A stretch of 64,000 nt of DNA from Cellulomonas timonensis (lineage in GTDB: Bacteria; Actinomycetota; Actinomycetes; Actinomycetales; Cellulomonadaceae). Positions 4,871 through 59,632 of the stretch are shown one piece after another (the first letter of the stretch is position 1; each line of letters starts with the position of its first letter). The notes beneath the pieces are model-generated. The model was not told where the DNA came from, ran no database searches, and saw only the letters and a list, made by a program, of their open reading frames with translations. Both the position numbers and the translations under genes were made by a program. The DNA lies in NCBI RefSeq assembly GCF_900046455.1, contig NZ_FCOT01000010.1, positions 310,001 to 374,000 of the forward strand. The letters run 5' to 3'.

Positions 4871-4918
4871 GCGAGCCGCTGGGCGCCTTCGACGACGGGC
4901 GCATGACCCGCTGAGCGC

Positions 4919-33812: not shown

Positions 33813-35012
33813 ATGAAGCCCTGGGGCACGCCCCTGTCCCCCGCCGCCGCCCGCGTGATGCTGCTGGGCTCCGGCGAGCTCGGCAAGGAGGTGCTGATCG
33901 CGTTGCAGCGGCTCGGCGTGGAGACCATCGCCGTCGACAGGTACCCCGGCGCACCCGGCCACCAGGTGGCCCATCGCGCGCACACCCTCGACATGACCGA
34001 CCCGCAGGCCCTGCGGGACCTCATCCTGGCCGAGCGCCCCGACCTGGTGGTGCCGGAGATCGAGGCCATCGCCACGTCGGCGCTTGAGGACCTCGAGCGG
34101 GACGGCCTGGTCCAGGTGGTCCCCACCGCGCGCGCGACCCGCCTGACGATGGACCGCGAGGGCATCAGGCGCCTCGCCGCCGAGACCCTGGGCCTGCCCA
34201 CCAGCCCCTACCGCTTCTGCGACTCGGAGGACGAGCTGCGGGCGGCGATCGACGCCATCGGGTACCCGTGCGTGGTCAAGCCGGTGATGAGCAGCTCCGG
34301 CAAGGGCCAGAGCCGCCTCGACGGGCCCGACGACATCACCCCGGCGTGGGAGCACGCAATGGCGGGCGGGCGCGTCGCGGGCGGACGGGTCATCGTCGAG
34401 GGATTCGTCGACTTCGACTACGAGATCACCCTGCTCACCGTGCGGGCAGTGGAGGCTGACGGCACTGTCGGCACGCGCTTCTGCGAGCCCGTGGGGCACC
34501 GCCAGGTGGGCGGCGACTACGTGGAGAGCTGGCAGCCGCAGCCCATGTCGCCGGTGGCGCTCAGCCGGGCGCAGGAGATCGCGCGGGCCGTGACCGGCGA
34601 CCTCGGCGGGCTGGGGGTGTTCGGCGTGGAGCTGTTCGTGCGCGGCGACGACGTGTGGTTCAGCGAGGTCAGCCCGCGCCCGCATGACACCGGCATGGTC
34701 ACGATGGCCACGCAGCGGCAGAGCGAGTTCGACCTGCACGCCCGGGCGATCCTGGGGCTGCCGGTGGACACCACGCTGCTGAGCCCGGGGGCCAGCGCCG
34801 TCGTCTACGGCGGCGTGGACGCCGAGGCTGTGGTGTTCGAGGGCGTCGCCGAGGCCCTGCGCGTGCCGCACAGCGACCTGCGGCTGTTCGGCAAGCCTGC
34901 CAGCGGGGTCCGCCGACGCATGGGCGTGGCGCTGGTCCACGGCGACGACGTGGAGACGGCCCGCGCGCAGGCGGCCCTGGCGGCGAGCAAGGTCACGGCG
35001 CGGCCAGCCTGA
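33813..35012 (+). CDS. purT: formate-dependent phosphoribosylglycinamide formyltransferase
   Basis: 399 residues, ATP-grasp fold, catalysing the formate-dependent third step of purine synthesis. It shows [13 protein letters not shown] near the N-terminus, the ATP-grasp segment [16 protein letters not shown] and the metal-binding [24 protein letters not shown] precedes the ATG. The last 20 bp overlap the convergent flavoenzyme gene. Formate released by the formamidase at 15.3 kb could feed it, though the two are not linked. Confidence 0.95.
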
Positions 35013-37110
35013 CTGCCATGCCCGCGGCCACTGCTGTCCCGGCCCGCAGGCCCTGCTCGAACGCGCGCACGGCGTTGAGGCCGGGGGCGTCCAGTGCCCC
35101 GCCGATCACCGTGTGCGGGATGCCGAGCGCCGCCAGCTCCGCCGCCAGCGGGGCGTGCGGCTCCTGGCCGGCGGCGACCACGACGGTGTCGGCGGGGATC
35201 ACCTCCTCCACGCCGTCGACATCGGCATTGGCGACGACGAGCCCCTCGGCGGCGATCCGGCGGTACTCGACGCCTGTCCTGCTGCGCACTCCTGCCACGC
35301 GGATGGCCTGCAGCACGGCCCACCGAGTGGACGGCCCGATGCCCTCCCCGACGTGGCGGCCCCGGCGCAGCAGCGTGATCTCCCGGGCGGGGGCTCCCGC
35401 GCGCGGCTGGTCCAGCCCGGCCTCGCGCCGGAAGCGGGCACGCTCGGCGGCCCGACTGTCGGCATGGTCGCCCCAACACACCTGCATCTCATCCGGGCCG
35501 CCGAGCCCAGCGCCGGTAGGCGGAAGCGGCAGAGGTGAGGGCGAGCCCGGAAAGGAGGATAAGTGCGCCAGGTCCACGGCGATGCCGCCCGCCCCGATCA
35601 CCGCAACCCTGCGGCCAACCCGCCACGGGGCCGCGAACGCCTCCTGGTAGTCGAGCACCGGCAGCGCGCCCGCGCCGGGCAGCGCCACCCGGCGCGGGCG
35701 CACCCCCGTCGCGACGATCACGTGGGCATGGTCCGCCAGGTCGGCGGCGCTCGGCGCGACGCCCACGCGGATGCGCACCCCGAGCCTGGCGAGCTCGTGG
35801 CGGAAGTAGCGGACTGTCGCCAGGTAGTCCTCCTTGCCGGGCACCTGGCCCGCGAGCAGGAACTGCCCGCCGATCGAGTCGGCCGCCTCGATCAGGTCCA
35901 CCGGCGCCCCTGCGGCGGCCAGCGTGGCTGCCGCCTGCATGCCGGCGGGGCCAGCCCCCACCACCGCCACGCGGGGCGAACGGGGCTCGGGCTCTCGCAC
36001 CGCGAGTGGGAACTCCAGCTCGCGCCCGGCACGCGGGTTGACCAGGCAGGACACCCGCTCGACGCCGAGGGAGCGGTCGATGCAGGCCTGGTTGCATGCG
36101 ATGCACGTGTTCACCAGGTCGAGGTCGCCGTCGCGCGACGTGGCGACGAGGCGCGCGTCGGCCAGGAACGGGCGGGACATCGACACCAGGTCGACGTCGC
36201 CCCGCGCGAGCGCCTCCTCGGCGAGCGGGAGCGAGTTGACGCGGTTGGAGCCCATGACGGGCACGTCCAGGCCCGCCTGCGCGATCCGGCGCCGGATGCC
36301 CCCCGCGATGTCGAGCCACATGGAGTGCGGCACCAGGGACTGCACGCTCGGCACCGACGACTCATGCCACCCGATGCCGATGTTCAGCGCGTCCGCGCCG
36401 CCCGCCGCGAGCCGCAGCGCAAGGTCGGCGCTCTGCTCCGGTGTGCTGGACCCGTCGACGAAGTCCGCGCCCGATGTGCGGACGATCACCGGGAAGTCGG
36501 GGCCCACCGCCGCCCGGACCGCGGCCAACACGGCGAGCGGGAACGCGGCCCGGCGGTCCTCGTCGCCACCCCAGGCGTCGTCGCGCAGGTTCGTCAGCGG
36601 CGAGGCGAACTGGTTGATCAGGTACCCCTCGGAGCCCATCACCTCGACGGCGTCGAATCCGCGTCGCAGCGCGGTGGCGGCGGCTGCCGCGAAGGCCGCG
36701 ATGGTCCGCTGGACCCGCTCCTCGTCCATCGCGGCAGGCGTCTGCCGGGAGAACCGAGAGAAGACCGCCGACGGCGCCACCGGCGCGACGCCCATGGCGT
36801 ACCGCCCGGCATGGAAGAGCTGCAGCGCGAGCAGGGCGCCCGCCTGATGCACGGCGTCCAGCGCGGGCTCCAGGGCGTCCCAGGCGCCGGGCTCGTCGAG
36901 CACCAGGTACTCCGGGCTGCCCGCGCCCGCCCGGTCCACCGCCGCCCCGCCCGTGACGATCAGCCCGGCGCCCCCCAAGGCGCGCTCGCGGTAGAAGGCC
37001 GCGAGCGCCGGCGGGTCGTGCTCGAGGTTGAGGTGCATGGAGCCCATGACCACCCGGTGCGGCAGCCGCAGGCTCCCGATCCGGACGGGTGAGAACACGC
37101 GGGTGAGCAT
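34993..37110 (-). CDS. 2,4-dienoyl-CoA reductase-like flavoenzyme (PlmM/AnsM-like)
   Basis: 705 residues. Residues about 1-330 form an old-yellow-enzyme TIM barrel that binds FMN. A 4Fe-4S motif follows (CIACNQAC then Cys after 11 residues), then a C-terminal FAD/NAD(P) domain with [14 protein letters not shown] and [14 protein letters not shown]. This is the FadH architecture. It is the last gene of the cassette, 6 bp after the acyl-CoA dehydrogenase. In the proposed pathway it would reduce a ring double bond of a cyclohexadienyl-CoA. Confidence 0.9.
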
Positions 37111-37116
37111 CGACGC

Positions 37117-38316
37117 TCAGCCCTGGCCGCCGCCGAGTCCCGCGCGTCGCAGCAGGTCCCGGGCGATGACCGTCTTCTGGATCTCGTTGGTGCCCTCCTC
37201 GAACCGCTGCGCGCGGGCGTCGCGGTACACCCGCTCGATGGGCATCGACTTCCAGTAGCCGATGCCGCCGTGCACCTGCAGGGCCTTGTCGGTGACGCGG
37301 GTGAGCATGTCCACGGCGGTGAGCTTGGCCATCGACGACAGCGCGGGCGCACGGTCGTCGCCGTCCTGCCAGGCGCGCGCGGCGGTGAGGGTCAGGGCCT
37401 TCGCGGCCTCGATGTCCGCCGCGTTCTCAGCGAGCTGGAAGGCGATGGCCTGCCGGGACGCCAACGGCTTGCCGAAGGTGACCCGCTCGGTGGCGTAGGC
37501 GACGGCGAGCTGCTGCGCGCGCTGCGCGAGGCCCACACAGCTCATCGCCACGGAGATGCGGCTGGGGGTGAGGAACCCGCCAAGCGCCACCGCGAGGCCC
37601 TCCCCCTCCGCGCCGAGCCGCTGGGACACCGGCACGGGCGCGTCCTCGAACAGGAGGGTGGCGTGGTCGGTGCCGCGCACGCCCATGGTCTGCGAGCTGT
37701 CCTCCACGACGACACCGGGGGTCTGGCGGTCCACCAGCAGGGCGACGGTGCCCTCCTTGCCGCTGCTGCCGGCCAGCCGGGCGAACAGCAGCCAGTAGTC
37801 GCACCGCACCCCGAAGGTGATGAGGTGCTTGCGCCCGGTCAGCCGGTACACGTCCCCCTCGCGGCGCACCGTGGAGGTGATGTCCGCGCCCGTGCCGTTG
37901 CCGGGCTCGGTCAGCGTGAACGCGACGGTGAGCTTCCCGGCGATCGCGGGCTTGATGAACAGCTCGCGCTGGCGCTCGTCGGCGTAGGGGTTCATGGCCC
38001 GCCACGTCCCGTTGACCACGTGCACGATCATCCGCACCGACGCGTGCGACCGGGAGAACACCTCCATCAGCCCCATCCACTGCACGAAGCTCACGCCGCG
38101 CCCGCCCAGGTCGCGTGGCGCCGCGAGCGCGAGGTAGCCGAGGCCCACCAGCTCGTCCCACAGCGTGTCGGGCACGTCGCCGTCGGCCTCGATGCGCTCC
38201 GCCCAGGCCTCCCCCGGGCCCTCGACCCAGGCGGTGACCTCGGCGAGGAGTTGGTCGAACTCCTGGTCGGGGATGCTGCTGCCCCGGCCGTCGGCTGTGA
38301 TGGCGGCAATGCTCAC
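37117..38316 (-). CDS. acyl-CoA dehydrogenase (PlmL/AnsL-like)
   Basis: 399 residues, standard acyl-CoA dehydrogenase fold: FTLTEPGNGTGADITST (FAD/substrate loop), YATERVTFGKPLASRQAIAF, and the C-terminal VHGGIGYWKSMPIERVYRDA and EEGTNEIQKT, the latter holding the catalytic Glu. The GTG start overlaps the upstream fusion-gene stop (GTGA). It is expected to catalyse desaturation on an alicyclic CoA thioester in the proposed cyclohexanecarboxyl-CoA route; ordinary branched-chain acyl-CoA oxidation is the alternative. Confidence 0.9.
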   Translation of the reverse strand: MSIAAITADGRGSSIPDQEFDQLLAEVTAWVEGPGEAWAERIEADGDVPDTLWDELVGLGYLALAAPRDLGGRGVSFVQWMGLMEVFSRSHASVRMIVHVVNGTWRAMNPYADERQRELFIKPAIAGKLTVAFTLTEPGNGTGADITSTVRREGDVYRLTGRKHLITFGVRCDYWLLFARLAGSSGKEGTVALLVDRQTPGVVVEDSSQTMGVRGTDHATLLFEDAPVPVSQRLGAEGEGLAVALGGFLTPSRISVAMSCVGLAQRAQQLAVAYATERVTFGKPLASRQAIAFQLAENAADIEAAKALTLTAARAWQDGDDRAPALSSMAKLTAVDMLTRVTDKALQVHGGIGYWKSMPIERVYRDARAQRFEEGTNEIQKTVIARDLLRRAGLGGGQG

Positions 38317-41300
38317 GAGGTGCTCCCTGGGGTGTCGGCGGGTCGGGCTGCGTGGGATGTGGTGGTGAACTGCAGGGCGAGGTCCCGCAGGAGGAACTTC
38401 TGCACCTTGCCCACGGCGTTGCGCGGCAGGCTCTCCAGCACCTCGAGCCGCTCCGGCCAGTAGTGCTTGGACACCTGGTGGCCGTCCAGGTAGGCGGTGA
38501 GGTCGGCCAGGGTGAGGGTCGCCCCAGCGGTGGGGACCACGAACGCGCAGGCCCGCTCGCCCAGGCGCGGGTCGGGCATCGCGGCGATGGCCACGTCGTC
38601 GACGCCGGGATGCCGGTACAGGAGCTGCTCGATCTCGGCGACGGGGATCTTCTCCCCGCCCCGGTTCACCACGTCCCGGACCCGGCCGGTGATCCGCAGG
38701 AACCCCGCGTCGTCGAGGGTGGCCAGGTCGCCGGTGCGGTACCAGCCGTCCTCGGTGAGCGCCTCCTTGGTGAGGTCGGGGCGGTCCAGGTAGCCGTCGA
38801 ACATCGTGGGGCTGTGCAGCTCGAAGTTGCCCTCCCCGCCCGCCGGGATGAGGTGGCCGTCGTCGCTGACGATGCGGGCCCGCACCCCGTCCAGCAGCCG
38901 CCCGTCGGTGCCCCAGACCAGCGCCGGGTCGTCCTGCGGCGCGGCCAGGCTGCCCAGGCACGTCTCGGTGGTGCCGAACGCCCCGCACACCGCGGCGCCC
39001 AGCACGCGGGTGGCGCGCTCGGCCAGGTGCCGGGGCGCCGCGGCGCCGGTGTTCACGAAGATCCGCAGGCTCGCGGGCGCGGGCTCCCCGGCCTCCACCG
39101 CCTTGACCAGGTCGGTGAGGAACGGCGTCGCGGCCTGCGCGAACGTGCCCTTCCAGCCGCCCAGCAGCCGCAGCGCGCGCACCGGGTCCCACACGGGCTG
39201 CAGGATCTGCGGGGCGCCCAGCACGAAGGACAACCACATCCCGTAGAGGAAGCCCGTCTGGTGGGCGAGCGGCGAGGGGATGAAGATCGCGTCGTCGCTG
39301 GACAGGCCCAGATGCGCGACCTCCATCGCCGCCGCGCGGCTGAGGGTCTGGTGCCGGTGCAGCACGCCCTTCGGCTCGCCGGTGGTGCCGGAGGTGAACA
39401 GCAGCTGCGCGGCGTCGTCGGGGCGTGGGGCCCGCTCGTCGAGCACGTCGCGCCGCACGTCCGCCCCGGCCATCGTCTCGGCCCAGCTGTGCCAGCGGGG
39501 CGTGCGACCCGGCTCGTCGGGCGCGGCGGCATCCCCGCCCCCTGGCTCGGCGCCGGGCCGACAGCGCTCCGGGACCTCGCCGATCACGAGCACGTGCTCC
39601 AGGAACAGCCCGTACCCCGGGTCCCGGCCCGTGCCGGCGCGCAGGATGCCGTCGAGCTCCTCCGCGTGGCGCCGGCCCCGGAACTCCTCCGGCACGACCA
39701 TCACCCGCGCGCGCGACCTGTGCAGGGCGAACGCGACCTCGCGCTCGCGGAAGATCGGCATGATCGGGGCCACCACCGCGCCGACGCGCAGCACGGCCGT
39801 CGACAGCACCACGAACTCCCGCCAGTTCGGCAGCTGGAAGGCCACCCGGTCCCCCCGCCGCACCCCCAGGCCCACCAGCGCGGCGGCCGCGCGATCCGCT
39901 TCGGCGTCGAGCTGCGCCCAGGTCAGATGCCCGGTGGCGTTGTCGCGCGCGTCCACCACCGCCGTCTCGTTGGGCCGCTCGGCCGCCCACCGCCGCACCC
40001 ACTGGTCGCCGGTGGCCTGCGACGCCGCGTCGATCCCCGGCCCGGCGATGGTGTGCGGCCGGGCCGCGCGGGCTGTGCGGACTGCCGGGTGGTGGGGCGC
40101 CCGGCGCCGGAGCCGGCCGTCGTCCACCCGCATGTCCAGCCCGAAGGTCGTCATCGACTCCAGGTACTCCGGGTAGGAGATCCGGTAGGCGTGCGGGTAG
40201 GTGAGGGTGCTGCGCCCCTCGGCCGCGGAGGCCGCCACGGCCAGCGACATCAGCACCCGGTGGTCGTTGAAGGACGACAGGTCCGCGCCGCTGAGGCCGG
40301 GCACCCCGCGCACCCGCAGCTCGGCGCCCTCGATCCGCACATCCGCGCCCATGCTGTTGAGCTGCAGCATCGCGGCGACCCGGTCCGACTCCTTGAGCCG
40401 CACATGCTCGACGTTGCGGAAGACGCTCTCACCGTCGGCGAAGCAGGCCAGCACCGACAGGACGGGCAGCATGTCCGGCACGCTGCGGCAGTCGATGTCA
40501 GCCGGGCGCAGCCGCGCGCCGTCATGCCGCACCCGCACCGCGTCGACCTGCGGGTCGTAGGCCATCGGCACGCCCATCGCCGTGGCGATGTCCAGCAGGT
40601 GCGCCTCGGGATGGTCGGACCGCGCCGAACTGGTTGACCGGAGCCCGTGCAGCACGATGTCGGAGGGGTGCAGGGCCCCGGCAGCCAGCCCGAACGCCGC
40701 CGATCCGATGTCCGGCGGCATCCGCAGGTCGGTGGCCACGGCCTGCTGGTCGGGCTCCACCTCGAAGCGGCGCCAGTCGTCGGACACCTGCACGTGCAGC
40801 CCGAACTGCTTCATCATCTCGACGGTGAGCTGCAGGTAGGAGCGCTCGTTGAGCGGCCCGTCCACGACCACCGTGGTGGCGGACGACGCGAACGGCGCCA
40901 GCAGCAGCAGCCCCGAGATCCACTGCGAGAGGGTGCCGGCGATGTGCACCTCGCCGCCGCGGGGCCGGGCAGCGCGCACCCGGATGGGCGGGCAGTCGTC
41001 GGCGGAGGCCACGTCGAGGCCCATCTGGCGCAGCGCGGCGAGCAGCGGGCCGATCGGGCGGCGCTGGAAGTACTTCTGCCCGGTGACCGTGACATCCCGG
41101 TCGCCCAGCGCGGCCAGGCCGGCCATGAAGTACAGCGTGGTGCCGGAGCTGCCCGCCGTGACCACGTCGCGGCGCGGACGGTATGGGCCGCCGTGGACCA
41201 CGTACGTGCCGTCCTGGACGTCGATGCGGATGCCGAGCTGGCGCAGCATCGCCACCGTGTACTGGACGTGGCGGGCGTCGGTGAGGCCCGTGATGCGGCT

Positions 41301-41414
41301 GGTTCCCGGCGCCAGCGACGCGAGGATCAGCGCCCGATGCGCGTGGTACTTCGAGTTGGGCACCTGCACGGCGCCGCCGATGGGTTGATGCGTGCCGAGA
41401 ACTGACAGATACAT
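38313..41414 (-). CDS. EPSP-synthase-like / acyl-CoA ligase fusion (PlmJK-like)
   Basis: 1033 residues. Residues about 1-435 are an EPSP-synthase fold with Lys22, Arg27, Gln164, Asp314, KESDR (341-345) and DHR (384-386) kept. By hand alignment Ser23 is Tyr, Asn94 is Ser89, Ser169 is Leu162 and Lys411 is Ile412, so ordinary EPSP synthesis is doubtful. Residues about 445-1020 are an adenylate-forming CoA ligase: LLFTSGTTGEPKGV, FGTTETCLG, YRTGDLATLDDAGFLRITGR and NAVGKVQK. The same fusion occurs in phoslactomycin PlmJK, proposed to start shikimate conversion to cyclohexanecarboxyl-CoA. First gene of the operon. Confidence 0.9.
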   Translation of the reverse strand: MYLSVLGTHQPIGGAVQVPNSKYHAHRALILASLAPGTSRITGLTDARHVQYTVAMLRQLGIRIDVQDGTYVVHGGPYRPRRDVVTAGSSGTTLYFMAGLAALGDRDVTVTGQKYFQRRPIGPLLAALRQMGLDVASADDCPPIRVRAARPRGGEVHIAGTLSQWISGLLLLAPFASSATTVVVDGPLNERSYLQLTVEMMKQFGLHVQVSDDWRRFEVEPDQQAVATDLRMPPDIGSAAFGLAAGALHPSDIVLHGLRSTSSARSDHPEAHLLDIATAMGVPMAYDPQVDAVRVRHDGARLRPADIDCRSVPDMLPVLSVLACFADGESVFRNVEHVRLKESDRVAAMLQLNSMGADVRIEGAELRVRGVPGLSGADLSSFNDHRVLMSLAVAASAAEGRSTLTYPHAYRISYPEYLESMTTFGLDMRVDDGRLRRRAPHHPAVRTARAARPHTIAGPGIDAASQATGDQWVRRWAAERPNETAVVDARDNATGHLTWAQLDAEADRAAAALVGLGVRRGDRVAFQLPNWREFVVLSTAVLRVGAVVAPIMPIFREREVAFALHRSRARVMVVPEEFRGRRHAEELDGILRAGTGRDPGYGLFLEHVLVIGEVPERCRPGAEPGGGDAAAPDEPGRTPRWHSWAETMAGADVRRDVLDERAPRPDDAAQLLFTSGTTGEPKGVLHRHQTLSRAAAMEVAHLGLSSDDAIFIPSPLAHQTGFLYGMWLSFVLGAPQILQPVWDPVRALRLLGGWKGTFAQAATPFLTDLVKAVEAGEPAPASLRIFVNTGAAAPRHLAERATRVLGAAVCGAFGTTETCLGSLAAPQDDPALVWGTDGRLLDGVRARIVSDDGHLIPAGGEGNFELHSPTMFDGYLDRPDLTKEALTEDGWYRTGDLATLDDAGFLRITGRVRDVVNRGGEKIPVAEIEQLLYRHPGVDDVAIAAMPDPRLGERACAFVVPTAGATLTLADLTAYLDGHQVSKHYWPERLEVLESLPRNAVGKVQKFLLRDLALQFTTTSHAARPADTPGSTS

Positions 41415-49778: not shown

Positions 49779-50945
49779 TCAGCAGAAGCCCGACCACTCC
49801 TCGGGGTCGATAGCCCCGGCCGTGCGCGGGTTCGCGAGCGCACGGGCGAGCGCCGCGGCGTTGTGCGCACGCGCGTCCGCAGCCGCGCCCGCCAGGACCC
49901 GCTCAGCACCGAAGTCGAGCAGCCAAGACGGTTGCAAACGGGCGCCGCGGAGTGCTTTCGCCTCGCTCGCCTTGATCCCGGCGTGCAGCCGACGGTCACC
50001 GGACACGGCGGAGCGCTCGATCAACTCGTAATAGACAAGGTTGAAGTACTCCGCCGCGCCGGGCGCCAGCCGGTCGTAGTCGAACCCCGCCCAGCGCAGG
50101 TGCACCGTGCCGTTCCACCGGTAGTAGAGGCAGAAGCCGGTCACGACGCCGTCGCGTGCGCACGTCAGCACACGGGCCTCCGCTCCCATCCCCTCGATGT
50201 GCGCGCGCAGCAGGGACTCGTAGGACTCGACGTCCTGCACCGTTCCGTACTTGCCCCCGGTCGCGCGCGCGAGCGGGCCGAGCACCGCGACCCGCTCCGC
50301 GAGCGTCGAGTCCTCGACGACGTACCCCGCCTCGCGGAACCGTCGCCGTTCGCCGCGCACCGCCACGCGTCGTTTGGACGTCAGCGTGCCGAGCCACGCG
50401 TCCCAGCCCCCGCACACGTCGATCGACGCGTCGAGCTCGAGCAGGACTGGGATCCCGTCGACGCCGGCGGCGAGAGCACGGCGCACACCGTCGGTGTCGA
50501 GGTACATGCCCACCGTGGCGGCCTGCGACGCGCCGCCGCCCGAGGCTTCGCCGACGACGGCCGCCGCCTCGCGCAGCTGGTCGACGAGCATTGCGACGTC
50601 CTCGGGCCCCGAGGCCGGTGCGGACACGAGCCGGCCCTGGTAGCCCTGCAGCACGCCGATCATCGCGCCGTGGCCTGGGAGCGCCGGCAGCCCGCGCTCC
50701 GCGAGGAGGGTGTTCCAGTCGTAGAGTCCGGCCGCAGCCGACTCGACCTCGGTGACCACGGCGCCCGCGCGCGGCCGGGACGGCTCGCCCGCGAGCAGCA
50801 GACCGGTGCGGCCAGCCGCGGCCCCGGCGCAGTAGCGGACCCAGCGGGCGCTCGAGTAGAACGCGTCCTGGGTCAGCGCGTCCCAGTGCACGTCGTCAAC
50901 GGTCGCCGGCGCGAAGCCGAGGTCGCGGGCGGTCGTGATGTCCAT
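49779..50945 (-). CDS. GNAT/FemAB-like acyltransferase
   Basis: 388 residues. The C-terminal half (about 200-330) has SKRRVAVRGERRRFREAGY, VLTCARDGVVTGFCLYYRW and YFNLVYYELIERSA, resembling the BioF2/Acetyltransf_6 (peptidogalycan-type) GNAT fold. Such enzymes transfer an acyl or aminoacyl group. It ends in Cys. It lies 12 bp after lysE in the same operon. Confidence 0.7.
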   Translation of the reverse strand: MDITTARDLGFAPATVDDVHWDALTQDAFYSSARWVRYCAGAAAGRTGLLLAGEPSRPRAGAVVTEVESAAAGLYDWNTLLAERGLPALPGHGAMIGVLQGYQGRLVSAPASGPEDVAMLVDQLREAAAVVGEASGGGASQAATVGMYLDTDGVRRALAAGVDGIPVLLELDASIDVCGGWDAWLGTLTSKRRVAVRGERRRFREAGYVVEDSTLAERVAVLGPLARATGGKYGTVQDVESYESLLRAHIEGMGAEARVLTCARDGVVTGFCLYYRWNGTVHLRWAGFDYDRLAPGAAEYFNLVYYELIERSAVSGDRRLHAGIKASEAKALRGARLQPSWLLDFGAERVLAGAAADARAHNAAALARALANPRTAGAIDPEEWSGFC

Positions 50946-50957
50946 GGGTCTCCTCGA

Positions 50958-51719
50958 TCAGTGGGCGAACAGGCGAGAGACGCTCAGCACGAACGCCATG
51001 ACGATGAGGGTCACGCCACACACGAGGCGCGCCCGGAGAAGCGCCCGGGGACTGCTCAGGACGCTGCGGGAGGCCAGTCCGGTGAGCAGTGCGACCGCGA
51101 CGAGGACGCTCGTGCCCAGCACGTTGAACAACACGCCGAAGAAGGCGACCTGCTGCCATGTCGGGCCGTCCTGCGCCCGGACGAACTGCGGGATGAACGA
51201 CAGGTAGAACACGACGACCTTGACGTTGAGCAGGTTGACCAGGGCTCCGCGCGCCGTGACGGTCAGGAGGCCCGGCCGCTCGTCGGTCGCGGCCATCGCG
51301 CCCGAGGACGCCGACCCGTCGGGCAGGGCTGCGCCGGGCGAAGCGTCGTCGCGCGGGTGGTCGGCATAATGCGGCGTCCCGCCCGCCGTCGCGGGTTCGG
51401 CGACCGGGAGCGCGCTCGTGTCCCGGATCATCGCGACGCCGGACCACACGAGATAGGCAGCGCCCGCGAACGTGACGACGTTCATCAACACGGGCGACGC
51501 CGCGACGAGGGCGGACAGCCCAGCCGCGGCGAGGACCACGTGGCACAGCGAGCCGAGGGCGATCCCGAGCGCGGCGCACACACCCGCACGCGTACGCCAC
51601 CGCAACGTGGCGCCGACGACATAGGTCATGTCGAGCCCGGGGGTGAGGTTCAGCGCGAGGCTGGCCAGGACGAAGGCCCCGACCACCCCGATCTCCGGGA
51701 CGAACACCCCCGGGCCCAC
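50958..51719 (-). CDS. LysE/RhtB-family exporter
   Basis: 253 residues, about six helices: LNLTPGLDMTYVVG, RAGVCAALGIALGSLCHVVL and NLLNVKVVVFYLSFIPQFV are typical of LysE. A long hydrophilic loop (about residues 105-150) between helices 3 and 4 is larger than usual. The GTG start is 1 nt from the NRPS stop. It probably exports the cluster's amino-acid-like product or precursor. Confidence 0.9.
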   Translation of the reverse strand: MGPGVFVPEIGVVGAFVLASLALNLTPGLDMTYVVGATLRWRTRAGVCAALGIALGSLCHVVLAAAGLSALVAASPVLMNVVTFAGAAYLVWSGVAMIRDTSALPVAEPATAGGTPHYADHPRDDASPGAALPDGSASSGAMAATDERPGLLTVTARGALVNLLNVKVVVFYLSFIPQFVRAQDGPTWQQVAFFGVLFNVLGTSVLVAVALLTGLASRSVLSSPRALLRARLVCGVTLIVMAFVLSVSRLFAH

Positions 51720-51720
51720 C

Positions 51721-54672
51721 TCAGCGCGCGCCCGTCGGGATGGTCGCGCTGCTCCGGCGCGCGTCGACGGCCCGGGCGAGGTCTCGGACGGTCGCCGCCG
51801 TGAAGATCACCGTGAGCGGCAGGGCGACCCCGAGCTCCTCCTCGATCCCCTGGAGCATCGACAGGACGACGAGGGAGTGGCCCCCGACGTCGAAGAAGCT
51901 CTGCTCCATCCCGAACGACTCGGTTCCGAGGAGCTCGGACCAGACCCGGGCGACGGCGCGCTCGGTGTCGTCCGCCGGGGGGTCCACGGGCGCCGCCTGC
52001 TCCGCCTCGACCGGGAGCGCGGCGACGTCGACCTTGCCGCCGACCGTGGTCGGCCAGAGCGGGACGGCGAGCACCTGCGCAGGGACGTTCGCGGGCGGGA
52101 GCACCGTGGCCACCCGGTCGCGCGCGCGGGCCGCGACGTCCCGCCTGGCGCCGTCGCCACCGTCCGGCACCAGGACCCAGCCAACGAGGCGGGCGTCGGG
52201 CCCCTCGCCGAGCAGCCGGACCACGGCGTCGACCACACCGTCCTCGCGACGCAACACGGACTCGACCTCGCCGGTCTCGACCCGCACGCCGCGCACCTTG
52301 ACCTGTCCGTCATCCCGCCCGAGGAAGTCGAGCGACCCGTCGCCACGCAGCCGCCCGAGGTCGCCCGTGCGGTAGACGCGTCCCTGGTCGGCTGTCTCGA
52401 CGAACCGTGCGGCCGTGAGCGTCGGGTCACCGAGGTACCCGCGTGCCACACCGGCGCCCCCGACCCAGATCTCGCCCGCGACCCCAGGCAGCACGATCCG
52501 GCCGGCGTCGTCGCGGACCGTCACTGTGACACCGTCGAGCGGGGGGCCCAGCGTCGGGCGCGTGCCGGTGACCTCGACGGCCGTCGCGTTCACCGTGACC
52601 TCCGTCGGGCCGTAGACGTTGAAAGCGCGGACCGGCGACGCCGCGAGGGTGCACCACAGCCCATCGTTCACTGCCTCGCCACCCACGAGGACCACCCCGG
52701 GCCGGTGCGCGTCCGCGTCCAGCAGGCCCGCGGCGAGCAGGAGGGTGAGGAATGTCGGCGTGACATCGATGACGTCGACCCCCGCTCGGCGGCACAGCCG
52801 CACATACGCGGGCGGGTCCCGGCGAGTGTCCTCGTCGACGACGACGAGGTGGTGACCCGCGGCGAGGAGCCCGAGCCGCTCGACCGAGCCGTCGAACACC
52901 AGCGACGGCGTGAGCGTGCCCACGAGAGGCTCGTCCCGGCCCACGGTCGCCGGACCGTAGATCCGCGCGCGATGGGCCCGCACGAGGTTCACGACGGACC
53001 GGTGCTCGACGACGACACCCTTGGGCCGCCCTGTCGTGCCGGAGGTGTACAGCACATACGCGACGCCATCGGGTTGCGCCCGCGGCTCGAGCGGGCCCGC
53101 CGGCTCCTTGACGACGTCTGAGACCGCGAGCGTCGGCACGCCCAGGTCCTGCGCACTGTCGGCGGCGAGGAGGAGGACGGCGCCGGCGTCCGCGAGGACC
53201 GTGCGACGACGCTCGACCGGCCACTGCGGGTCAAGCGGGACGTACGCCGCGCCTGCCGCCCAGACGCCGAGCACCGCGGCGACGAGGTCGACGTCACGCT
53301 CGGAGGAGATGCCCACCACCGCGTCCTCACCGGCCGCGGCCAGGATCGCAGCGGCGACAGCGGCTGCAGACCGCGTGAGCTCCGCGTAGGTCACGGTCCG
53401 TCGGGCGTCGCTGACCGCCGGGGCGGCGGGGGTGCGGGCAGCCTGCTCGGCCACCAGGTGCACCAGGGTCGCGCCGGGAGCCTCCGGCGCCCCGCTGGGA
53501 ATGCCCGCGGTCGCCGGCGCGGCGCCACCCAGGGGCAGATCGGCCAGCAGCACGGCGGGATCCGTGCCGATCTGACCGAGGACCGCGACGAGGATGGCGA
53601 CGAGCTCGTCAGCGGGGCCATCGGCGTCGCGTGTGGTCACCACCGCACGGGCCCCGGACGCGTCGTGCAGCACATGGACGCCGATCCGGTCGTCGTGGCT
53701 GTCGTCTGAGAGGACCACGTGGTCCCGGACGTGCGCGGTCCGCACCGGCAACGCCGCGAACGTCACGGGCCCTTGCGGACGTCGGCTGTCGGCCGCGAAT
53801 GTGCCCACGCTCTGGCGCGACCACCGGAACGAGTCCGCCACGGCCACGAGCTCGGCGTGGGCCCTCACGACGGACGCGAGCACCTCGCTGGTCACCTCGT
53901 CGGCCTCGAGGACACGCGGCAGTGGCAGTAGGCGCGAGAGCACCCCGACCGTCGACGCCAAGTCGGGGTACACGGTCCGGTGGTCCACGAGCACGGCGGT
54001 CGCGGGCAGGGCGTCCCGAGCTCGTGCGCGGACCGTCTCCCAGGCCGCGAGCAGGAACGCGTGGACGTCCACCCCGGCGGTGGCCGCCCGCGTGGTGATG
54101 GCCGACCACTGCCCAGGGCCGACGAGCGCATCCGCCGTCTGCACCGGCTCGTCGGCGTCCGCCCTCCCCCCCCGCGCGGCCCGCGACGGCCGCGGGAGTT
54201 GGTCGCCCTCGGCGTCCGAGACGACGTCCAGCCGCCCCGCGGCGTACTGCCCCGCCTGCACCGGCTCGTCGAGCGTTCTCCCGGTGAGGATCTCGACAAG
54301 GTCGTCCGCGAGCACGACGAGCCCGCCGAGGTCGACCAGGTCGTCCGGCGCGCTCAGCTCGATCTCCGTGACCCCTGCGGACGACGCGAGCGTCACCTCG
54401 AGGCGAGCCACCGTCGACACGGCCCGGGCCGTGTCGCTCGCGGCGTCGACGGCCCACACGAGCGGCGCGTCGTCGTACACGTGGTGGACGACCCGCGACA
54501 GGCGCCGCTCCGTGCTCGTGCGCAGCGCCTCGTGCCGCGCGACGATGGTCGCCAAGGCCGCCTGCGCGGCCTCACGGGTTGTCCCCGACGGCAGCGGCAG
54601 CCGCAGACGCGAGCGCCCGAGGCCACGGCGCTCGCCGTGCTGGAGCGCTGCGGCCTGGTCCGTCACGCTCAT
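51721..54672 (-). CDS. single-module NRPS: degenerate condensation, adenylation and carrier domains
   Basis: 983 residues. Residues about 1-400 resemble a condensation domain, but the HHxxxDG site is replaced (APDDLVDLGG near residue 110), so it is likely inactive. Residues about 405-900 are an adenylation domain with LYTSGTTGRPKG, NVYGPTEVTV, YRTGDLGRLRGDG and GGKVD. My hand-read specificity code, D-G-E-D-L-G-V-V-N-K, looks closer to Glu/Gln/Lys-type pockets than hydrophobic ones. Residues about 905-970 are a carrier domain with the phosphopantetheine Ser in DVGGHSL. No thioesterase. The start overlaps the dioxygenase stop (ATGA). Confidence 0.88.
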   Translation of the reverse strand: MSVTDQAAALQHGERRGLGRSRLRLPLPSGTTREAAQAALATIVARHEALRTSTERRLSRVVHHVYDDAPLVWAVDAASDTARAVSTVARLEVTLASSAGVTEIELSAPDDLVDLGGLVVLADDLVEILTGRTLDEPVQAGQYAAGRLDVVSDAEGDQLPRPSRAARGGRADADEPVQTADALVGPGQWSAITTRAATAGVDVHAFLLAAWETVRARARDALPATAVLVDHRTVYPDLASTVGVLSRLLPLPRVLEADEVTSEVLASVVRAHAELVAVADSFRWSRQSVGTFAADSRRPQGPVTFAALPVRTAHVRDHVVLSDDSHDDRIGVHVLHDASGARAVVTTRDADGPADELVAILVAVLGQIGTDPAVLLADLPLGGAAPATAGIPSGAPEAPGATLVHLVAEQAARTPAAPAVSDARRTVTYAELTRSAAAVAAAILAAAGEDAVVGISSERDVDLVAAVLGVWAAGAAYVPLDPQWPVERRRTVLADAGAVLLLAADSAQDLGVPTLAVSDVVKEPAGPLEPRAQPDGVAYVLYTSGTTGRPKGVVVEHRSVVNLVRAHRARIYGPATVGRDEPLVGTLTPSLVFDGSVERLGLLAAGHHLVVVDEDTRRDPPAYVRLCRRAGVDVIDVTPTFLTLLLAAGLLDADAHRPGVVLVGGEAVNDGLWCTLAASPVRAFNVYGPTEVTVNATAVEVTGTRPTLGPPLDGVTVTVRDDAGRIVLPGVAGEIWVGGAGVARGYLGDPTLTAARFVETADQGRVYRTGDLGRLRGDGSLDFLGRDDGQVKVRGVRVETGEVESVLRREDGVVDAVVRLLGEGPDARLVGWVLVPDGGDGARRDVAARARDRVATVLPPANVPAQVLAVPLWPTTVGGKVDVAALPVEAEQAAPVDPPADDTERAVARVWSELLGTESFGMEQSFFDVGGHSLVVLSMLQGIEEELGVALPLTVIFTAATVRDLARAVDARRSSATIPTGAR

Positions 54673-55745
54673 CGGAGGGCCCCGCCAGCCGCCGGGACGG
54701 CCATCTCGAACGCCCCAGGAACGGCCACCTCGTGGAAGTGCGACGCCCGCGCCATCGACACGAGCACCTTGCGCGTGCCGGTGAACGGATCGCGCGCGTG
54801 GCACACCCGGAGGTTGTCGAGCAGCATCACGTCGTCCTTCTCCCACGGGAACCGCACCCGCGCGGCGTCGTACGCGCGCCGGACCTCCGCCATCATGTCG
54901 TCGGCGATCGCACCGCCGTCCCCGAAGTACGCGTGGCGGGGCAGGTCGTGCTCGGGCATCGCCTCGAGCATCGCGGCCCGGATCTGCGGGTCAAGGTTCG
55001 TCACGTGGAACAGGTGGGCCTGGTTGAACCACACCGGGCGCCCGAGCGCGGGGTGCTGCACGACGGCCGGCAGCACGTGCTCCGTGCGGAGCCGGTCGCC
55101 TTCGCGCCACTCCCATGTCAGGCCGTCACGCTGGCAGTCCGCCTCGACGTCCGCCCGGTCATCCGTCTGGAACGCCTCCTGCCAGGTCAGCTCGAGCCCA
55201 GCGCCGAAGTTGCGCACGTAGCGCAGGCCGCGCCGCACGAACTCGTCGCGCACGTCCGAGTCGATCGCGTCGAAGACGTCGTCGGTCCGGGCGATCGGCG
55301 TGGCGCCCCCGGTCTCAGCGACGATCACGGAGTGGAACATGATCCGGGTGGGCCACCGGTACTGGAACGCGTTCTCGCTGTGCAGCTCGATCGACAGCGC
55401 CGACGGGTGCTCGGTGGAGGTGTAGACGCCCTCGCGCTCCTTGGTGCGGCGCGTCGAGCGCTGGGTGTATTCGAGCCCGCCGCCGCCGACCGTCGCGCCG
55501 AACCGCGGGAAGCCGGTCTCCGGGGCGACCAGGAAACCACGGAACAGCAACGAGCCGTGCTCCGCGAGCATCGCCTCGATCCGCGCCACGTTCTCCTCAG
55601 CCCACGCGCCGAGATCGATGTCGGTCGTTGGGCGCACGACGAGCGGGTGGGCCGCGCCGTCGATCTGTGCGGTCACCACGTCAGCCGCACCGGTCGGGAC
55701 CGATCGCGGGCGCAGGCTCCGGAAGCTGGGTGTTGGGGAAGTCAT
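54669..55745 (-). CDS. SyrP-like TauD/TfdA dioxygenase
   Basis: 358 residues, non-heme Fe(II)/2-oxoglutarate oxygenase. Iron ligands are His and Glu in IELHSENAF (an HxE rather than HxD) and a distal His in VCHARDPFTG, with Arg downstream for 2-oxoglutarate. GAGLELTWQEAFQTDDRADV is typical of SyrP relatives, which hydroxylate amino acids on NRPS carrier domains. Co-translation with the NRPS supports that role here. It overlaps the asnB fragment by 4 bp. Confidence 0.88.
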   Translation of the reverse strand: MTSPTPSFRSLRPRSVPTGAADVVTAQIDGAAHPLVVRPTTDIDLGAWAEENVARIEAMLAEHGSLLFRGFLVAPETGFPRFGATVGGGGLEYTQRSTRRTKEREGVYTSTEHPSALSIELHSENAFQYRWPTRIMFHSVIVAETGGATPIARTDDVFDAIDSDVRDEFVRRGLRYVRNFGAGLELTWQEAFQTDDRADVEADCQRDGLTWEWREGDRLRTEHVLPAVVQHPALGRPVWFNQAHLFHVTNLDPQIRAAMLEAMPEHDLPRHAYFGDGGAIADDMMAEVRRAYDAARVRFPWEKDDVMLLDNLRVCHARDPFTGTRKVLVSMARASHFHEVAVPGAFEMAVPAAGGALR

Positions 55746-57436
55746 ACCGATCCTCTCGTCGTCACGGGCTGCGCCGCGGTGAGCGCGGCGTCAGGTCGGG
55801 CGCTGCTGGTGTGCCAGCGCTCGAGCATGTAGAGCGTCCACAGGGCGTACGCGTCGGCGGGGCGGAAGGCTTGGACGAACGACCGGAGCCTGTCGGGATC
55901 GAAGTAGCCGCGTCCGAGCGACTCCTCGGCGAGCAGCGCGGACGTGATCCGGTCACGTAGGAGGCGCGTGAGCCAGGACTCGAGCGGGACGGCGAGCTCC
56001 TGCTTGCGCCGGTGCACCACACTGGCGGGCAGGTAGCGCTCGGCGACCGCCTTGAGCAGGGCCTTCTCGTTCCCCGGGACCAGCCGGAGGCCGGGGCCCA
56101 GGGTGCTGACGTACTCGACGAGCCGGTGGTCGAGCATGGGGCTGCGGGCCTCGACAGAGCTGGCCATCGACATCCGGTCGATCTTGACCAGCTGCGCGTC
56201 CGGCAGCCAGAACCGGAAGTCCAGCTGCAGCGCCCGCTCGAGGTCGGAGCGGCTCGGGTCGGTGCGTCCGAGCCGGCGCCGCAGGTGCACCGCCGGGTCG
56301 GTCTCGGTGACCCGAGACCGGAACGCCGGCGCGTACAGGTGCTCCTTGAGCGCGGGACGCACGCCGTCGACCAGCACGCTCGCGTAGCGGGTGGCCAGGT
56401 CGTCCCCCGCCTGGAGCGCCTCGAAGTCGACGCGGTGGCGGTCCGCCGGGTCGACCTCAGGGAGCGCCCGCAGCACGTCGTAGCGCCGGTAGCCACCGAA
56501 GATCTCGTCGGCGCCGTCGCCCGTCAGGACGACCGTGACCTCGCGCGCGGCGAGCTGGTACATCCTCCGGCTCGCGATCGCCGACGGGAACGCGTAGGGC
56601 TCGCCCATGTGCGCGAGGACCGCGTCCGCGTCGGCCAGGGCGTCGTCCGGCTGCACGGCGACCGCGTGATGCCGTGTACCGCAGAATTGGGACACCGCGC
56701 GCGCGTGCTCGGACTCGTCGAACGCCGCCTCCGCGAACCCGATCGAGAACGTGTCCAGCGGTTCTGGACGCATCCGGGCGGCCATCGCCACGACCAGGCT
56801 CGAGTCGAGCCCACCGCTGAGCATCGCCCCGAGCGGCACGTCCGCCTCCGATTCGAGGCGGCGCTCGACCGCGGCGCGCAGCAGGCGGTCGATCGTGTCC
56901 ACCGCGTCGTCCCACCTGACGACTGGGTCGAGCCCGTGGTCGCGCACATCCCAGTACGTGCTGGTCCGGATCCCGTTGTCGTCGAGCACCAGGATCGACG
57001 CCGGGGGGAGCTTGCGCACCGAGCGGTAGACCGTGCGGGGTGCGGGCACCACGCGGTGGCTGAGGTACTCATCGACCGCGTCGGGGTCGATCGTGAGGTC
57101 GAGATCGTGGTGCTGCGCGAGCGCCGAGAGCTCGGAGGCGAACACGAAGACGCCGTCGGGCGTCGTGCCGTAGAACAGCGGCTTCTTCCCGGCCCGGTCC
57201 GTGGCGAGGACGAGCCGCCGGTTCCGGGCGTCGAGGAGGGCAATCGCGAACATGCCGTCGAGGTGCGCGAACATCGCTGTGCCGTGGTGCGCGTACATCG
57301 CCGGGAGCACCGCGGCGTCCCCGCGGCCGTGGACCGGCCTGCCCGCGACGAGCATGCGGCGTCGGATCTCGTGGTGGTTGTAGATCTCCCCGTTGAACAC
57401 GACGGCGACCTGCGGATCGGCGCCGCTGACGGGTTG
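55742..57436 (-). pseudogene. asnB: asparagine synthetase (glutamine-hydrolysing), N-terminally truncated
   Basis: About 564 codons. FNGEIYNHHEIRRR begins the remaining glutaminase domain. The synthetase domain is intact with the pyrophosphate loop AMLSGGLDSSLV and DGADEIFGGYRRYD. The first 45-55 residues, including the catalytic Cys2, are missing; the sequence upstream is the start of an MFS gene. A GTG at 57400 could start a shortened protein that uses free ammonia. In the cluster it could amidate a side chain or, like beta-lactam synthetase, form an intramolecular amide. Confidence 0.85.
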
Positions 57437-57728: not shown

Positions 57729-58706
57729 CTACGGCCTTCTGCCGCCGGCGAGCAGGCGTTCCACACCGGGGAGGTCGTGCTCGACCAGATCCGTCGCGAC
57801 GACCAACGCATCCCAGGACAGGGGGTCCGCACCGAGCTCTTCGAGGCCGCGGGCGAAGATGTGCCAGTCCAGGGGCTCGGCGCCTGCGCGGGCGCGGTCG
57901 AGCCGCTCCAGGAGGTCCCCGGCCGTCGCTCCCATGCCGCCCGGGACGTCGCTGTCCTCGACGCGCCGGACGAGCTCGGACCTCAGTCGCGCGGACGAGG
58001 CCTCCAGATCGAGGTCGTGGGCCAACGCTCGCGCCTCGAGCTCGGCGACGGCCTCCTCCAGCGCGGACCGCGTCGCGGGCGACGCCGCAGCACCCATCGC
58101 CGCGTAGAAGTCCGCCAGGGCCTCCGGCACGAGGATCGCCAGCTCACGCACCATGTCCAAAGGCTCGTCGGACGTGTGGACCAGGACCACGAGCTTCGTG
58201 GGGGACCCGAGCGTGGCCCGGAGCTGGTGCGGCTGACGACGGGTGGTGTCCGACGGTCCTTTGAGCGCGGTGAGGCGCAGGCTCGCGGGCCCCTCCCGCA
58301 CCGCGGACACATCGCGCAACAGAACGACGATCGAGTCGTCGCGCGAGCAGATCGCGTCAGCCAGCTCGAGACTCGCCGGGGTCGAGGAACTGGACTGGTA
58401 GTGCCAGATCGCGGCCGTCACCGGAGGATCGATCCGCACCCGGCGCCAGTGGACTGGTTCGAATCCCTCCCGCCGGACGATGCTCAGAGCCCGCTGCGCG
58501 AGTCCACCGGCCACGCAATCGGGCTGGAGCACCAGCACGGCGTGGTCGCGCAGCAGTGCGGCGAGGCCGGCGGCCTCGCGCGGTCGGGCGCGGGCCAGAC
58601 CGGCCGCCACATGCTCGTCCTCGGAGTACAGCTGCCACTTCTCGGCGTCGTCGGTGAATAGGCGCCAGGCCCCGTCGGCCAGCTCGTCGATCAGCTCCCG
58701 TGCCAC
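57729..58706 (-). CDS. nucleoside-diphosphate-kinase-like protein
   Basis: 325 residues. Residues about 55-195 align with NDK: HAVLVLQPDCVAGGLAQRAL at the start, RLTALKGPSDTTRRQPHQLR in the middle and VHTSDEPLDMVREL, where the His sits at the catalytic phosphohistidine position. Residues about 200-325 are an extra helical domain not found in NDK. GGAAGGA precedes the GTG start. The association with an NRPS-type cluster is unusual; it might phosphorylate a product or an intermediate, which is inference. Confidence 0.7.
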   Translation of the reverse strand: MARELIDELADGAWRLFTDDAEKWQLYSEDEHVAAGLARARPREAAGLAALLRDHAVLVLQPDCVAGGLAQRALSIVRREGFEPVHWRRVRIDPPVTAAIWHYQSSSSTPASLELADAICSRDDSIVVLLRDVSAVREGPASLRLTALKGPSDTTRRQPHQLRATLGSPTKLVVLVHTSDEPLDMVRELAILVPEALADFYAAMGAAASPATRSALEEAVAELEARALAHDLDLEASSARLRSELVRRVEDSDVPGGMGATAGDLLERLDRARAGAEPLDWHIFARGLEELGADPLSWDALVVATDLVEHDLPGVERLLAGGRRP

Positions 58707-58948
58707 TGACGTCCTTCCTCGTGCCGGACCCGACCATCGGCCGGAAGGCGTCGCACCGTGCGATTCGGCGCCTGGCCAGCTCACGCCAGCGGCCAGGCTA
58801 CCGCGGCCCGCGGAGGCGTCAACGAGGTGGGCAGGGGGTTGCGCAGCCGCTCCACGGTTCGCGATGATCACGGCGCGCAGCCACCTGGTTGCCGCCGCGG
58901 GGCGGGCTGGCTCACGGCACATCCGGCACTCCAGAAGAGGACTCCGAC

Positions 58949-59632
58949 GTGACCGCACTCGAGACGCTCGTCGAGCCGCTGCTCAAGATCGACTGGGACG
59001 ACACGGACGCCGTCGAGGCCGTCGCCGAAGAGGCGCTCAAGGCCGTCGCGGCTGACGGCCGCATCCTCCGCGAGGCGCTCGCCGCGCTGGCCGAGCGTCC
59101 AGATCTGCAAGCGCTGTGCGAGCACCCCGACCCGCAGGGCACAGCCGACCTGGGGCAGCAGCTCGACAAAGTGGTCCTGTACGCCGACCCGGATTCCGGG
59201 GTCCGGGTGCGACTGCACGCCTTCTGGCCCGGCTACTACGACCTGCCGCACAACCACCGATGGACCTTCGCGAGCCTCGTCATGCGCGGTCGGTTCCGGC
59301 ACCGGATCTACGGCGACCAGGGGCCCGACGACGCCCCCCTGCCGGTACCGCTCCTCCCGCTGCACGTGCGGCACGAGGAGCCCGGCAATGTCTACGCGCT
59401 GCACCACAGGATGCTGCACGCTCTCATCGCAGAGCCCGGCACCGTGTCCCTGGTGGTTCGCGGCCCAGCCGCGAAGGACCGCTCGTTCCTCGTCAGGGAG
59501 AGCGATGGCGCCCGCGTGTGGCACGTCGGCGCGAGCAACGAGTCATCGCAGCAGCTGGCACGCAAGCGCATGAGCCCGGCTCGTCTGGCAGAGCTCACCG
59601 AGCTGTTCGGCACGTGGGGGCTCCTAGGCTGA
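58949..59632 (+). CDS. cupin-fold protein of unknown function
   Basis: 227 residues: a helical N-terminus (about 1-60) and a cupin barrel with the metal-binding motif [19 protein letters not shown] and a second His pair in [12 protein letters not shown]. It resembles the cysteine-dioxygenase-like cupins in layout but cannot be assigned a substrate. AGAAGAGG precedes the GTG start. Divergent from the NDK-like gene by 242 bp, and overlapping the P-type ATPase gene by 9 bp at the 3' end. Confidence 0.7.

Follow-up and report, generated by a model that had tools for sequence, protein, structure and literature searches.

Three genes in a 64,000-nucleotide stretch of the Cellulomonas timonensis genome (C10:310001-374000; the window, from a genome of 4.06 Mb in 13 contigs) raise the question of whether this bacterium makes cyclohexanecarboxyl-coenzyme A (CHC-CoA), a ring-bearing thioester required by certain antibiotic clusters, and of what takes up the ring once it is made. 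The genes, referred to here as JK, L and M, were recognized in a preliminary description of the window as a candidate CHC-CoA cassette from which the reductase ChcA is missing. This study places the ChcA gene in a second operon on the same contig, together with genes for an acyl-CoA ligase (LIG2) and a β-ketoacyl synthase (KS). The best explanation is a two-locus pathway in which CHC-CoA is made and is used by fatty acid synthesis, to which we give a probability of about two in three; all of its reactions, its product and what KS and LIG2 do are inferred from sequence. Genomes, contigs and loci are designated below by G, C and L numbers, respectively, with G000 for the genome of the window; coordinates are collected in Table 1.

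The cassette and the altered site of the J domain

JK, L and M form three intact open reading frames on one strand of the window. The stop of JK and the start of L have the four bases GTGA in common (GTG at 38316) and only six bases separate L from M, so that co-transcription of JK-L-M is very likely. The frames, domains and spacing agree with the earlier account of three overlapping or near-abutting minus-strand genes encoding a fusion of 5-enolpyruvylshikimate-3-phosphate (EPSP) synthase and CoA ligase, an acyl-CoA dehydrogenase and a FadH-type flavoenzyme.

JK has the Pfam domains EPSP_synthase (residues 9-421), AMP-binding (474-876) and AMP-binding_C (927-1003), all over the cut-off, and J matches a solved EPSP synthase with an E value of 8.4e-56. 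J has the fold of EPSP synthase (AroA) in common with that enzyme, whereas seven residues of the site are changed. These were read from 88 rows of the J family, those of the window and of 87 relatives, aligned with the ordinary AroA of the genome, which is 32% identical to J; L109 was left out as too short, and the rows of L027 and L028 are identical. With the Escherichia coli residue numbers and site roles that we take to apply, all 88 rows have Y23, S89, Y95, L162, E190, H337 and I412 at the places of S23, N94, R100, S169, S197, N336 and K411, and all 88 keep K22, R27, G96, R124, S170, Q171, Y200, D313, K340, E341, R344, H385 and R386. The AroA of the genome keeps S23, R100, S169 and S197; because it differs or is unaligned at N94, Y200, D313, K340 and K411, the differences that we regard as telling are those at positions 23, 100, 169 and 197. 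The remaining positions were compared only with two solved EPSP synthases, and in the phmmer alignment to solved EPSP synthases the place of S169 is a gap in J, not Leu. An ordinary EPSP synthase would carry the serines S23, S169 and S197, where J has Tyr, Leu and Glu in 88 of 88 rows. Since Glu replaces the Ser that holds the 3-phosphate, the sequence suggests free shikimate as the substrate of J.

The assignment of J as an ordinary AroA was rejected, given the second AroA in the genome and the changed site in every row. Best matches to an ordinary AroA were among the outcomes that, according to the preliminary description, would refute the cassette; J is distinct from the ordinary AroA of the genome, despite its score against the general aroA model (given below with the other points of doubt).

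The K, L and M enzymes

The best NCBIfam model for K is cyclohexanecarboxylate-CoA ligase (TIGR03208; 472 bits, under the cut-off of 792). L has the N-terminal, middle and C-terminal Pfam domains of acyl-CoA dehydrogenases over their cut-offs; its closest solved structures are caffeyl-CoA reductase CarC and then short-chain acyl-CoA dehydrogenases, and it reaches 195 bits against the cyclohexane-1-carbonyl-CoA dehydrogenase model (cut-off 650). M combines the Pfam domains Oxidored_FMN and Pyr_redox_2 and aligns over residues 5-690 with 2,4-dienoyl-CoA reductase (1ps9; E 1.5e-132) with four cysteines in register, which are presumably equivalent to the iron-sulphur ligands of FadH. M also carries about 12 Pro/Ser-rich residues (near 518-531) that are absent in Cellulomonas cellasea.

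Cassettes of relatives

One genome per species was scanned with an 11-row J alignment, and the best 80 of 279 relatives, ranked by likeness to the J of the window, were joined with 11 further stretches to give 91 loci, of which L021, L029 and L030 were dropped as duplicates of L032, L040 and L042, leaving 88. Neighbouring genes were called with a composition-based script, to which genes under 80-100 amino acids are invisible and whose starts are uncertain. The nearest named relative among the best 80 of 279 is C. cellasea ET82, with 99% identity in J; Arthrobacter citreus and A. koreensis are also among these 80.

J and K are both found in 88 of the 88 loci, and L in 80. M is present in 60 and ChcA, a FabL-type short-chain dehydrogenase/reductase (SDR), in 62. 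Wherever all four genes are present (47 loci) they follow the order J-L-ChcA-M on one strand, and none of the 88 loci has a cassette on mixed strands. A full ChcA is missing from 26 loci: 13 of the split type, in which L and M abut as in the window (two Cellulomonas and eleven Arthrobacter), eight in which the contig ends soon after the cassette (L072, L085, L088, L096, L105, L107 with a fragment, L110 and L111) and five with sequence to spare (L092, L093, L103, L104 and L108). Of the 68 loci of at least 20 kb, three have JK by itself. In three Streptomyces genomes (S. sulphureus, S. albus and S. xiaopingdaonensis) there is a second JK without L, ChcA or M in the fetched stretch (L093, L104 and L108), in addition to fuller cassettes in L095, L059 and L077; the second JK may serve another shikimate-derived product.

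Relationship to antibiotic-type clusters

According to Table 2 of PMC5852498, the phoslactomycin genes are ordered plmJK, plmL, ChcA, plmM, and in the lactomycin cluster lmB precedes lmP1. The window has the same enzyme types as these clusters (lmP1-lmP4 in lactomycin), with JK followed by L and then M, as far as the printed table allows comparison. The claim that the window holds the plm set in the same order is thus borne out for JK-L-M and not for ChcA, which plm-type clusters hold between L and M. In the window nothing lies between these two genes, and ChcA is about 218 kb off in the company of LIG2 and KS; moreover, unlike in the phoslactomycin and lactomycin systems, no polyketide synthase (PKS) was found in the genome by a search with KS. 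Compared with the phoslactomycin and ansatrienin type as a whole, the fusion of an AroA-like domain with a CoA ligase is present, L and M lie downstream, ChcA is absent between them and is present elsewhere in the genome. Likeness to PlmJK, PlmL, PlmM and ChcA was judged from the printed gene table and from homologs in loci with PKS genes or genes of the 3-amino-5-hydroxybenzoic acid (AHBA) type, and the ChcA of the relatives matches that of the phoslactomycin table by place and type.

In L060 (Streptomyces), JK-L-ChcA-M stands beside genes for an AHBA-synthesis-associated protein (over the cut-off), a DegT aminotransferase, a GFO/IDH oxidoreductase and a class II 3-deoxy-D-arabino-heptulosonate 7-phosphate synthase, and L065, L067, L068, L070 and L094 resemble it by similarity in these AHBA-type genes. 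Such company would fit an ansamycin starter set and ansatrienin as the product, the CHC-CoA genes of which we take to be ansJ, ansK, ansL, ansM and chcA. In these six loci of probable ansatrienin type J is 63-64% identical to that of the window and the gene order is the same apart from ChcA, whereas the cassette lies beside ansamycin-type genes, unlike that of the window. In L091 a type I PKS gene directly precedes JK, as lmB precedes lmP1, and L087 and L099 are alike by similarity. Because relatives lie in ansamycin-type and type I PKS clusters, the genes of the window are assigned to the same family as those of antibiotic-type clusters with a need for CHC-CoA. The original proposal of a CHC-CoA cassette is upheld by these relatives, by the constant order in 47 of 47 loci and by the order in the plm table.

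A second operon with ChcA, a ligase and a ketosynthase

The preliminary description had placed ChcA outside the window and had called for a genome-wide look for a chcA-like SDR. A tblastn search of the window with two ChcA proteins gave no match at E ≤ 1e-8, and an alignment of ChcA run against the complete genome gave an ortholog with an E value of 1.1e-140 (next SDR 1.9e-35), 217.5 kb from the cassette. Loss of ChcA, considered as an explanation of the incomplete cassette, was rejected since this ortholog is intact.

ChcA leads a tight run of ChcA, LIG2 and KS, after which genes of other kinds follow. All five split genomes that were read show the order ChcA-LIG2-KS: G000, G005 and G006, and G551 and G721 of Arthrobacter. 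Homologs of every part occur as a single run, JK-L-ChcA-M-KS-LIG2, in seven Streptomyces loci (L053, L055, L056, L061, L063, L064 and L086), with KS 61-63% and LIG2 62-64% identical, whereas in the genome of the window and in the two Arthrobacter genomes the genes are divided between two operons, with ChcA-LIG2-KS as the second. KS follows M in 15 of the 88 loci, seven with and eight without LIG2. The Cys and the two His residues of FabF are conserved in the aligned KS sequence; KS is over the FabF model NF005589 (472 bits, cut-off 387) and just under TIGR03150 (486 bits, cut-off 494). Its start in L143 is probably about ten codons before position 4912, as judged from L145.

Some further membrane proteins and ketosynthases accompany these genes. 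A CPBP/Rce1-like membrane protein is encoded before ChcA, with copies at the same place in G005 and G006 (92% identical) and none found in the two Arthrobacter stretches. Another membrane protein, of cluster c13 (seven Streptomyces-type loci), is encoded after LIG2 in L053, L061 and L063, on the other strand. Eremiobacterota and certain further metagenome-assembled genomes (L075, L078, L079, L082-L085, L088, L102, L105, L107 and L111) have, immediately ahead of J, the gene of another ketosynthase with 32-38% identity to KS, and hence a ketosynthase partner seems, from sequence similarity, to have been recruited more than once.

Co-occurrence, history and selection

In a sample of 119 genomes of relatives, J (E ≤ 1e-60) and ChcA (E ≤ 1e-70) occur in the identical five genomes, and LIG2 (E ≤ 1e-100) occurs in those same five, far from the cassette in G016 and G056. 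J and ChcA likewise have the same four carriers among 297 genomes sampled from the order. The genome of the window is counted in both samples, and with carriers in only a small number of genera these co-occurrences are not independent events. KS is found in three of the five J-carrying genomes among the 119 and, marginally, in a single genome that lacks J (E 5.5e-92, 46% identical). In a phylum-wide draw J is present in five of 396 genomes, and the four carriers besides the genome of the window have ChcA nearby.

J is absent from four of the six other genomes of the genus (G001-G004). The cassette is flanked on the left by a convergent purT gene on the plus strand (624 bits to NF006766, cut-off 339), which ends at 35012 and overlaps M by 20 bases, and on the right by genes for a GyrI-like and then a Stealth protein; C. 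cellasea and G005, a second species, have the same neighbours on both sides of the cassette. An empty site was not demonstrated, as purT, sought in the six other genomes of the genus at E ≤ 1e-80, was found only in G004 (64% identical), G005 and G006.

Trees of J (89 rows) and ChcA (67 rows), made by quick searches with support from the Shimodaira-Hasegawa-like approximate likelihood-ratio test (SH-aLRT) only, both unite Cellulomonas with the A. citreus group, with support of 95 for a 14-row J clade and 97 for a five-row ChcA clade in which two genomes represent Arthrobacter. G016 and G056, which are other members of the family, are distant in the trees. Because Cellulomonas and Arthrobacter have the split and the ChcA-LIG2-KS order in common, the simplest account is a single split before both operons moved between or into both lineages, and the place of Cellulomonas among Arthrobacter rows in the J tree (97) favours Arthrobacter as the donor.

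Ratios of nonsynonymous to synonymous substitution (dN/dS) were obtained for the window against C. cellasea and against G005. They are 0.13 and 0.20 for JK and 0.05 and 0.17 for L, and lie at 0.04-0.14 for three flanking genes. All cassette genes are under purifying selection, which is weakest on M.

The probable taker of the ring

In the proposed pathway, J would remove a hydroxyl group from free shikimate by dehydration and K would form the CoA thioester. The oxygens and double bonds still left would be removed or moved by L, M and ChcA, with 1-cyclohexenylcarbonyl-CoA finally reduced to CHC-CoA. In known pathways of the phoslactomycin and ansatrienin type the isomerase ChcB is encoded outside the cluster. 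In Cellulomonas the cluster would be broken in two, with JK-L-M in the window and the ChcA-LIG2-KS operon about 218 kb away; CHC-CoA would then prime type II fatty acid synthesis to give ω-cyclohexyl fatty acids, with KS as the candidate ketosynthase for the ring-bearing chain.

A search of the genome with KS at E ≤ 1e-10 returned only KS itself and FabF (42% identical), beside which FabH is encoded. No PKS was found by this query, although the supply of a polyketide starter would call for one; the same query does detect type I PKS genes elsewhere (L087 and L091), at about 100 bits. Since no PKS was found, type II fatty acid synthesis is most likely the natural taker of CHC-CoA. The preliminary description had named ω-cyclohexyl fatty acids or a distant pathway as the likely use, and the result of the KS query shifts the weight to fatty acids.

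The 68 loci of at least 20 kb were compared for what accompanies the cassette. Thirteen have a KS ortholog, 12 of these without a gene for a PKS, a ketoacyl synthase III (KAS III), AHBA synthesis or another KS. Eighteen have such genes and no KS ortholog: six with AHBA genes, three with a type I PKS, four with KAS III and five with another KS only. A Fisher value of 0.015 on these locus counts treats related loci as independent and is not relied on.

A review (PMC4147253), in the part that concerns the asukamycin-producing strain, gives CHC-CoA as a precursor of ω-cyclohexyl fatty acids amounting to 3.1% of the total, and the pertinent section of PMC10011130 lists cyclohexyl-C17:0 as possibly present in Herbiconiux (Microbacteriaceae). 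ω-Alicyclic fatty acids make up about 60% of the membrane lipid in two Alicyclobacillus strains, according to an extract of PMC10562698; the likeness of Alicyclobacillus to the window lies in the predicted product class only, and no Alicyclobacillus is among the best 80 of 279 J relatives. The literature matches listed contain no CHC-CoA cassette, dedicated ketosynthase or cyclohexyl lipid for Cellulomonas or Arthrobacter, which is a weak negative as the primary phoslactomycin, ansatrienin and asukamycin papers lie outside those matches.

Points of doubt and alternative explanations

Several observations weigh against a two-locus pathway to ω-cyclohexyl fatty acids. J is over the NCBI aroA model TIGR01356 (321 bits, cut-off 287), so that automatic annotation would name it AroA; this model fails to separate the J family from ordinary AroA. 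The His at the place of N336 is not distinctive, because the AroA of the genome has it too. K, L and M are under the cut-off of every NCBIfam model examined (the best 25 of 112, 22 of 22 and the best 25 of 52, respectively). M is missing in 16 of the 68 loci of at least 20 kb with JK and L, and in the window it has the highest dN/dS of the cassette (0.31 and 0.29). In 37 of the 68 loci, including the 13 split loci, neither a KS ortholog nor PKS-type genes are nearby; for these genomes, KS was looked for elsewhere in Cellulomonas and two Arthrobacter. The two kinds of gene are not strictly exclusive, because L098 combines a KS ortholog with a second stretch resembling KS (97 bits, 32%) close to the locus end. 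G016 and G056, both with J, ChcA and LIG2, have no KS ortholog at E ≤ 1e-90, so that KS is dispensable in some versions. The roles of KS and LIG2 are therefore the weakest link of the explanation, as LIG2 may also serve salvage. Finally, there are adenylation-type matches among the long frames of the genome and a protein with adenylation and carrier domains in the window, which leave room for another user of CHC-CoA.

The closest alternative overlaps with the best explanation: the ordinary FabH and FabF would use the CHC-CoA primer, and KS and LIG2 would act otherwise, for example with LIG2 salvaging free cyclohexanecarboxylate. We regard this as somewhat unlikely. The genome does have FabH, G016 and G056 manage without a KS ortholog, and the review cited above (PMC4147253), in the same part, has CHC-CoA entering the fatty acid synthesis of a Streptomyces; against this, the place of KS in the ChcA operon of all five split genomes and after M in 15 of the 88 loci suggests a role tied to the ring.

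It is less probable still that CHC-CoA is made and is turned by LIG2 and KS into a small product, such as a cyclohexyl β-keto acid or an acylated peptide, instead of membrane fatty acids. LIG2 and a stand-alone KS are outside the phoslactomycin/lactomycin table of PMC5852498. The presence of LIG2 in the same five of 119 genomes as J and ChcA means that it may serve a later step, the adenylation-type matches could belong to such a route, and the ring presumably goes to the product in ansamycin-type and PKS loci. However, only KS and LIG2 are common to several lineages beside the cassette (among called genes of at least 80 amino acids, which a small acyl carrier protein gene could escape), the c13 membrane protein that follows LIG2 in Streptomyces-type loci has no counterpart called beside LIG2 in Cellulomonas or Arthrobacter, and the genome has only one other ketosynthase of the KS family.

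A role in the breakdown of cyclohexanecarboxylate or similar alicyclic acids, at which the resemblance of K and L to the ligase and dehydrogenase models might hint, is very improbable, as both models are far under their cut-offs and relatives sit in antibiotic-type clusters; we know of no catabolic pathway for such acids that needs an AroA-like enzyme. Equally improbable is a cassette in decay, left unable to reach CHC-CoA by the loss of ChcA, which the missing ChcA between L and M and the faster change of M than of its neighbours might suggest, since ChcA is intact elsewhere, the three frames are open with dN/dS values of 0.05-0.31 and the layout without ChcA recurs in 13 of the 88 loci.

Implications of the proposed two-locus pathway

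A pathway known from antibiotic clusters is thus placed in a bacterium in which no PKS was found, and a candidate ketosynthase and ligase are named. What is new here is that ChcA lies in a second operon, that a ligase and a ketosynthase are conserved along with it, that J and ChcA co-occur, that the split is common to Arthrobacter and that no PKS is detectable. The signature of JK (Y23 and E190), ChcA and KS could predict makers of ω-cyclohexyl fatty acids. The EPSP synthase family without the phosphate-side serines (88 of 88 rows) would offer a case for the evolution of a shikimate dehydratase from AroA. More tentatively, and at less than even odds, this may be a horizontally spread two-operon lipid trait of Cellulomonas, Arthrobacter and some Streptomyces, in which a shikimate-derived primer is served by its own FabF-type ketosynthase, which would start or elongate the ring-bearing chain beside or instead of FabH/FabF and so give ω-cyclohexyl membrane lipids. 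In that case KS would, to our knowledge and among the literature matches listed, be without precedent as a ketosynthase devoted to an alicyclic primer, and JK with KS would be a gene marker for these lipids. Introduced into S. avermitilis, the CHC-CoA cassette yields doramectin with no need to supply the acid (PMC4581413).

Table 1. Coordinates of the cassette, of related genes elsewhere in the genome and of other window features (window positions unless a contig or locus is named)
Feature	Position	Strand	Description
JK	38313..41414	minus	1033 aa; AroA (EPSP synthase)-like domain and acyl-CoA ligase, PlmJK type
J domain of JK	40125..41414 (residues 1-430)	minus	EPSP synthase fold, altered site
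K domain of JK	38316..40067 (about residues 450-1033)	minus	AMP-forming acyl-CoA ligase
L	37117..38316	minus	acyl-CoA dehydrogenase, PlmL type; GTG start
M	34993..37110	minus	705 aa; FadH-type 2,4-dienoyl-CoA reductase-like flavoenzyme, PlmM type
M cysteines	36046..36105	minus	Cys336-x2-Cys339-x3-Cys343-x11-Cys355, in register with 1ps9 cysteines (alignment)
ChcA	C10:126660-127463	minus	SDR, second operon
CPBP/Rce1-like protein	L143:7538-8380 (G000:C10:127538-128380)	same as ChcA	membrane protein before ChcA
AroA	C10:165117		ordinary AroA of the genome
FabF	C13:301483
FabH	C13:303162
Operon-like run	49779-57400	minus	perhaps a small peptide or polymer pathway
409-aa frame	57729-58958	minus	putative

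Other features of the window

The operon-like run contains genes for a GNAT protein (Acetyltransf_6) and a LysE/RhtB-type exporter (below the cut-offs), and three further open reading frames. One encodes a 983-aa protein in which about 400 residues without a family assignment precede an adenylation domain (over the cut-off) and a carrier domain. Another, of 358 aa, matches no NCBIfam family, and the third encodes an asparagine synthase (over the cut-off) that also resembles the XrtA/PEP-CTERM amidotransferase below the cut-off; the run is perhaps an undescribed small peptide or polymer pathway. The putative 409-aa frame beyond it has a nucleoside diphosphate kinase-like stretch in mid-protein (E 4e-8).

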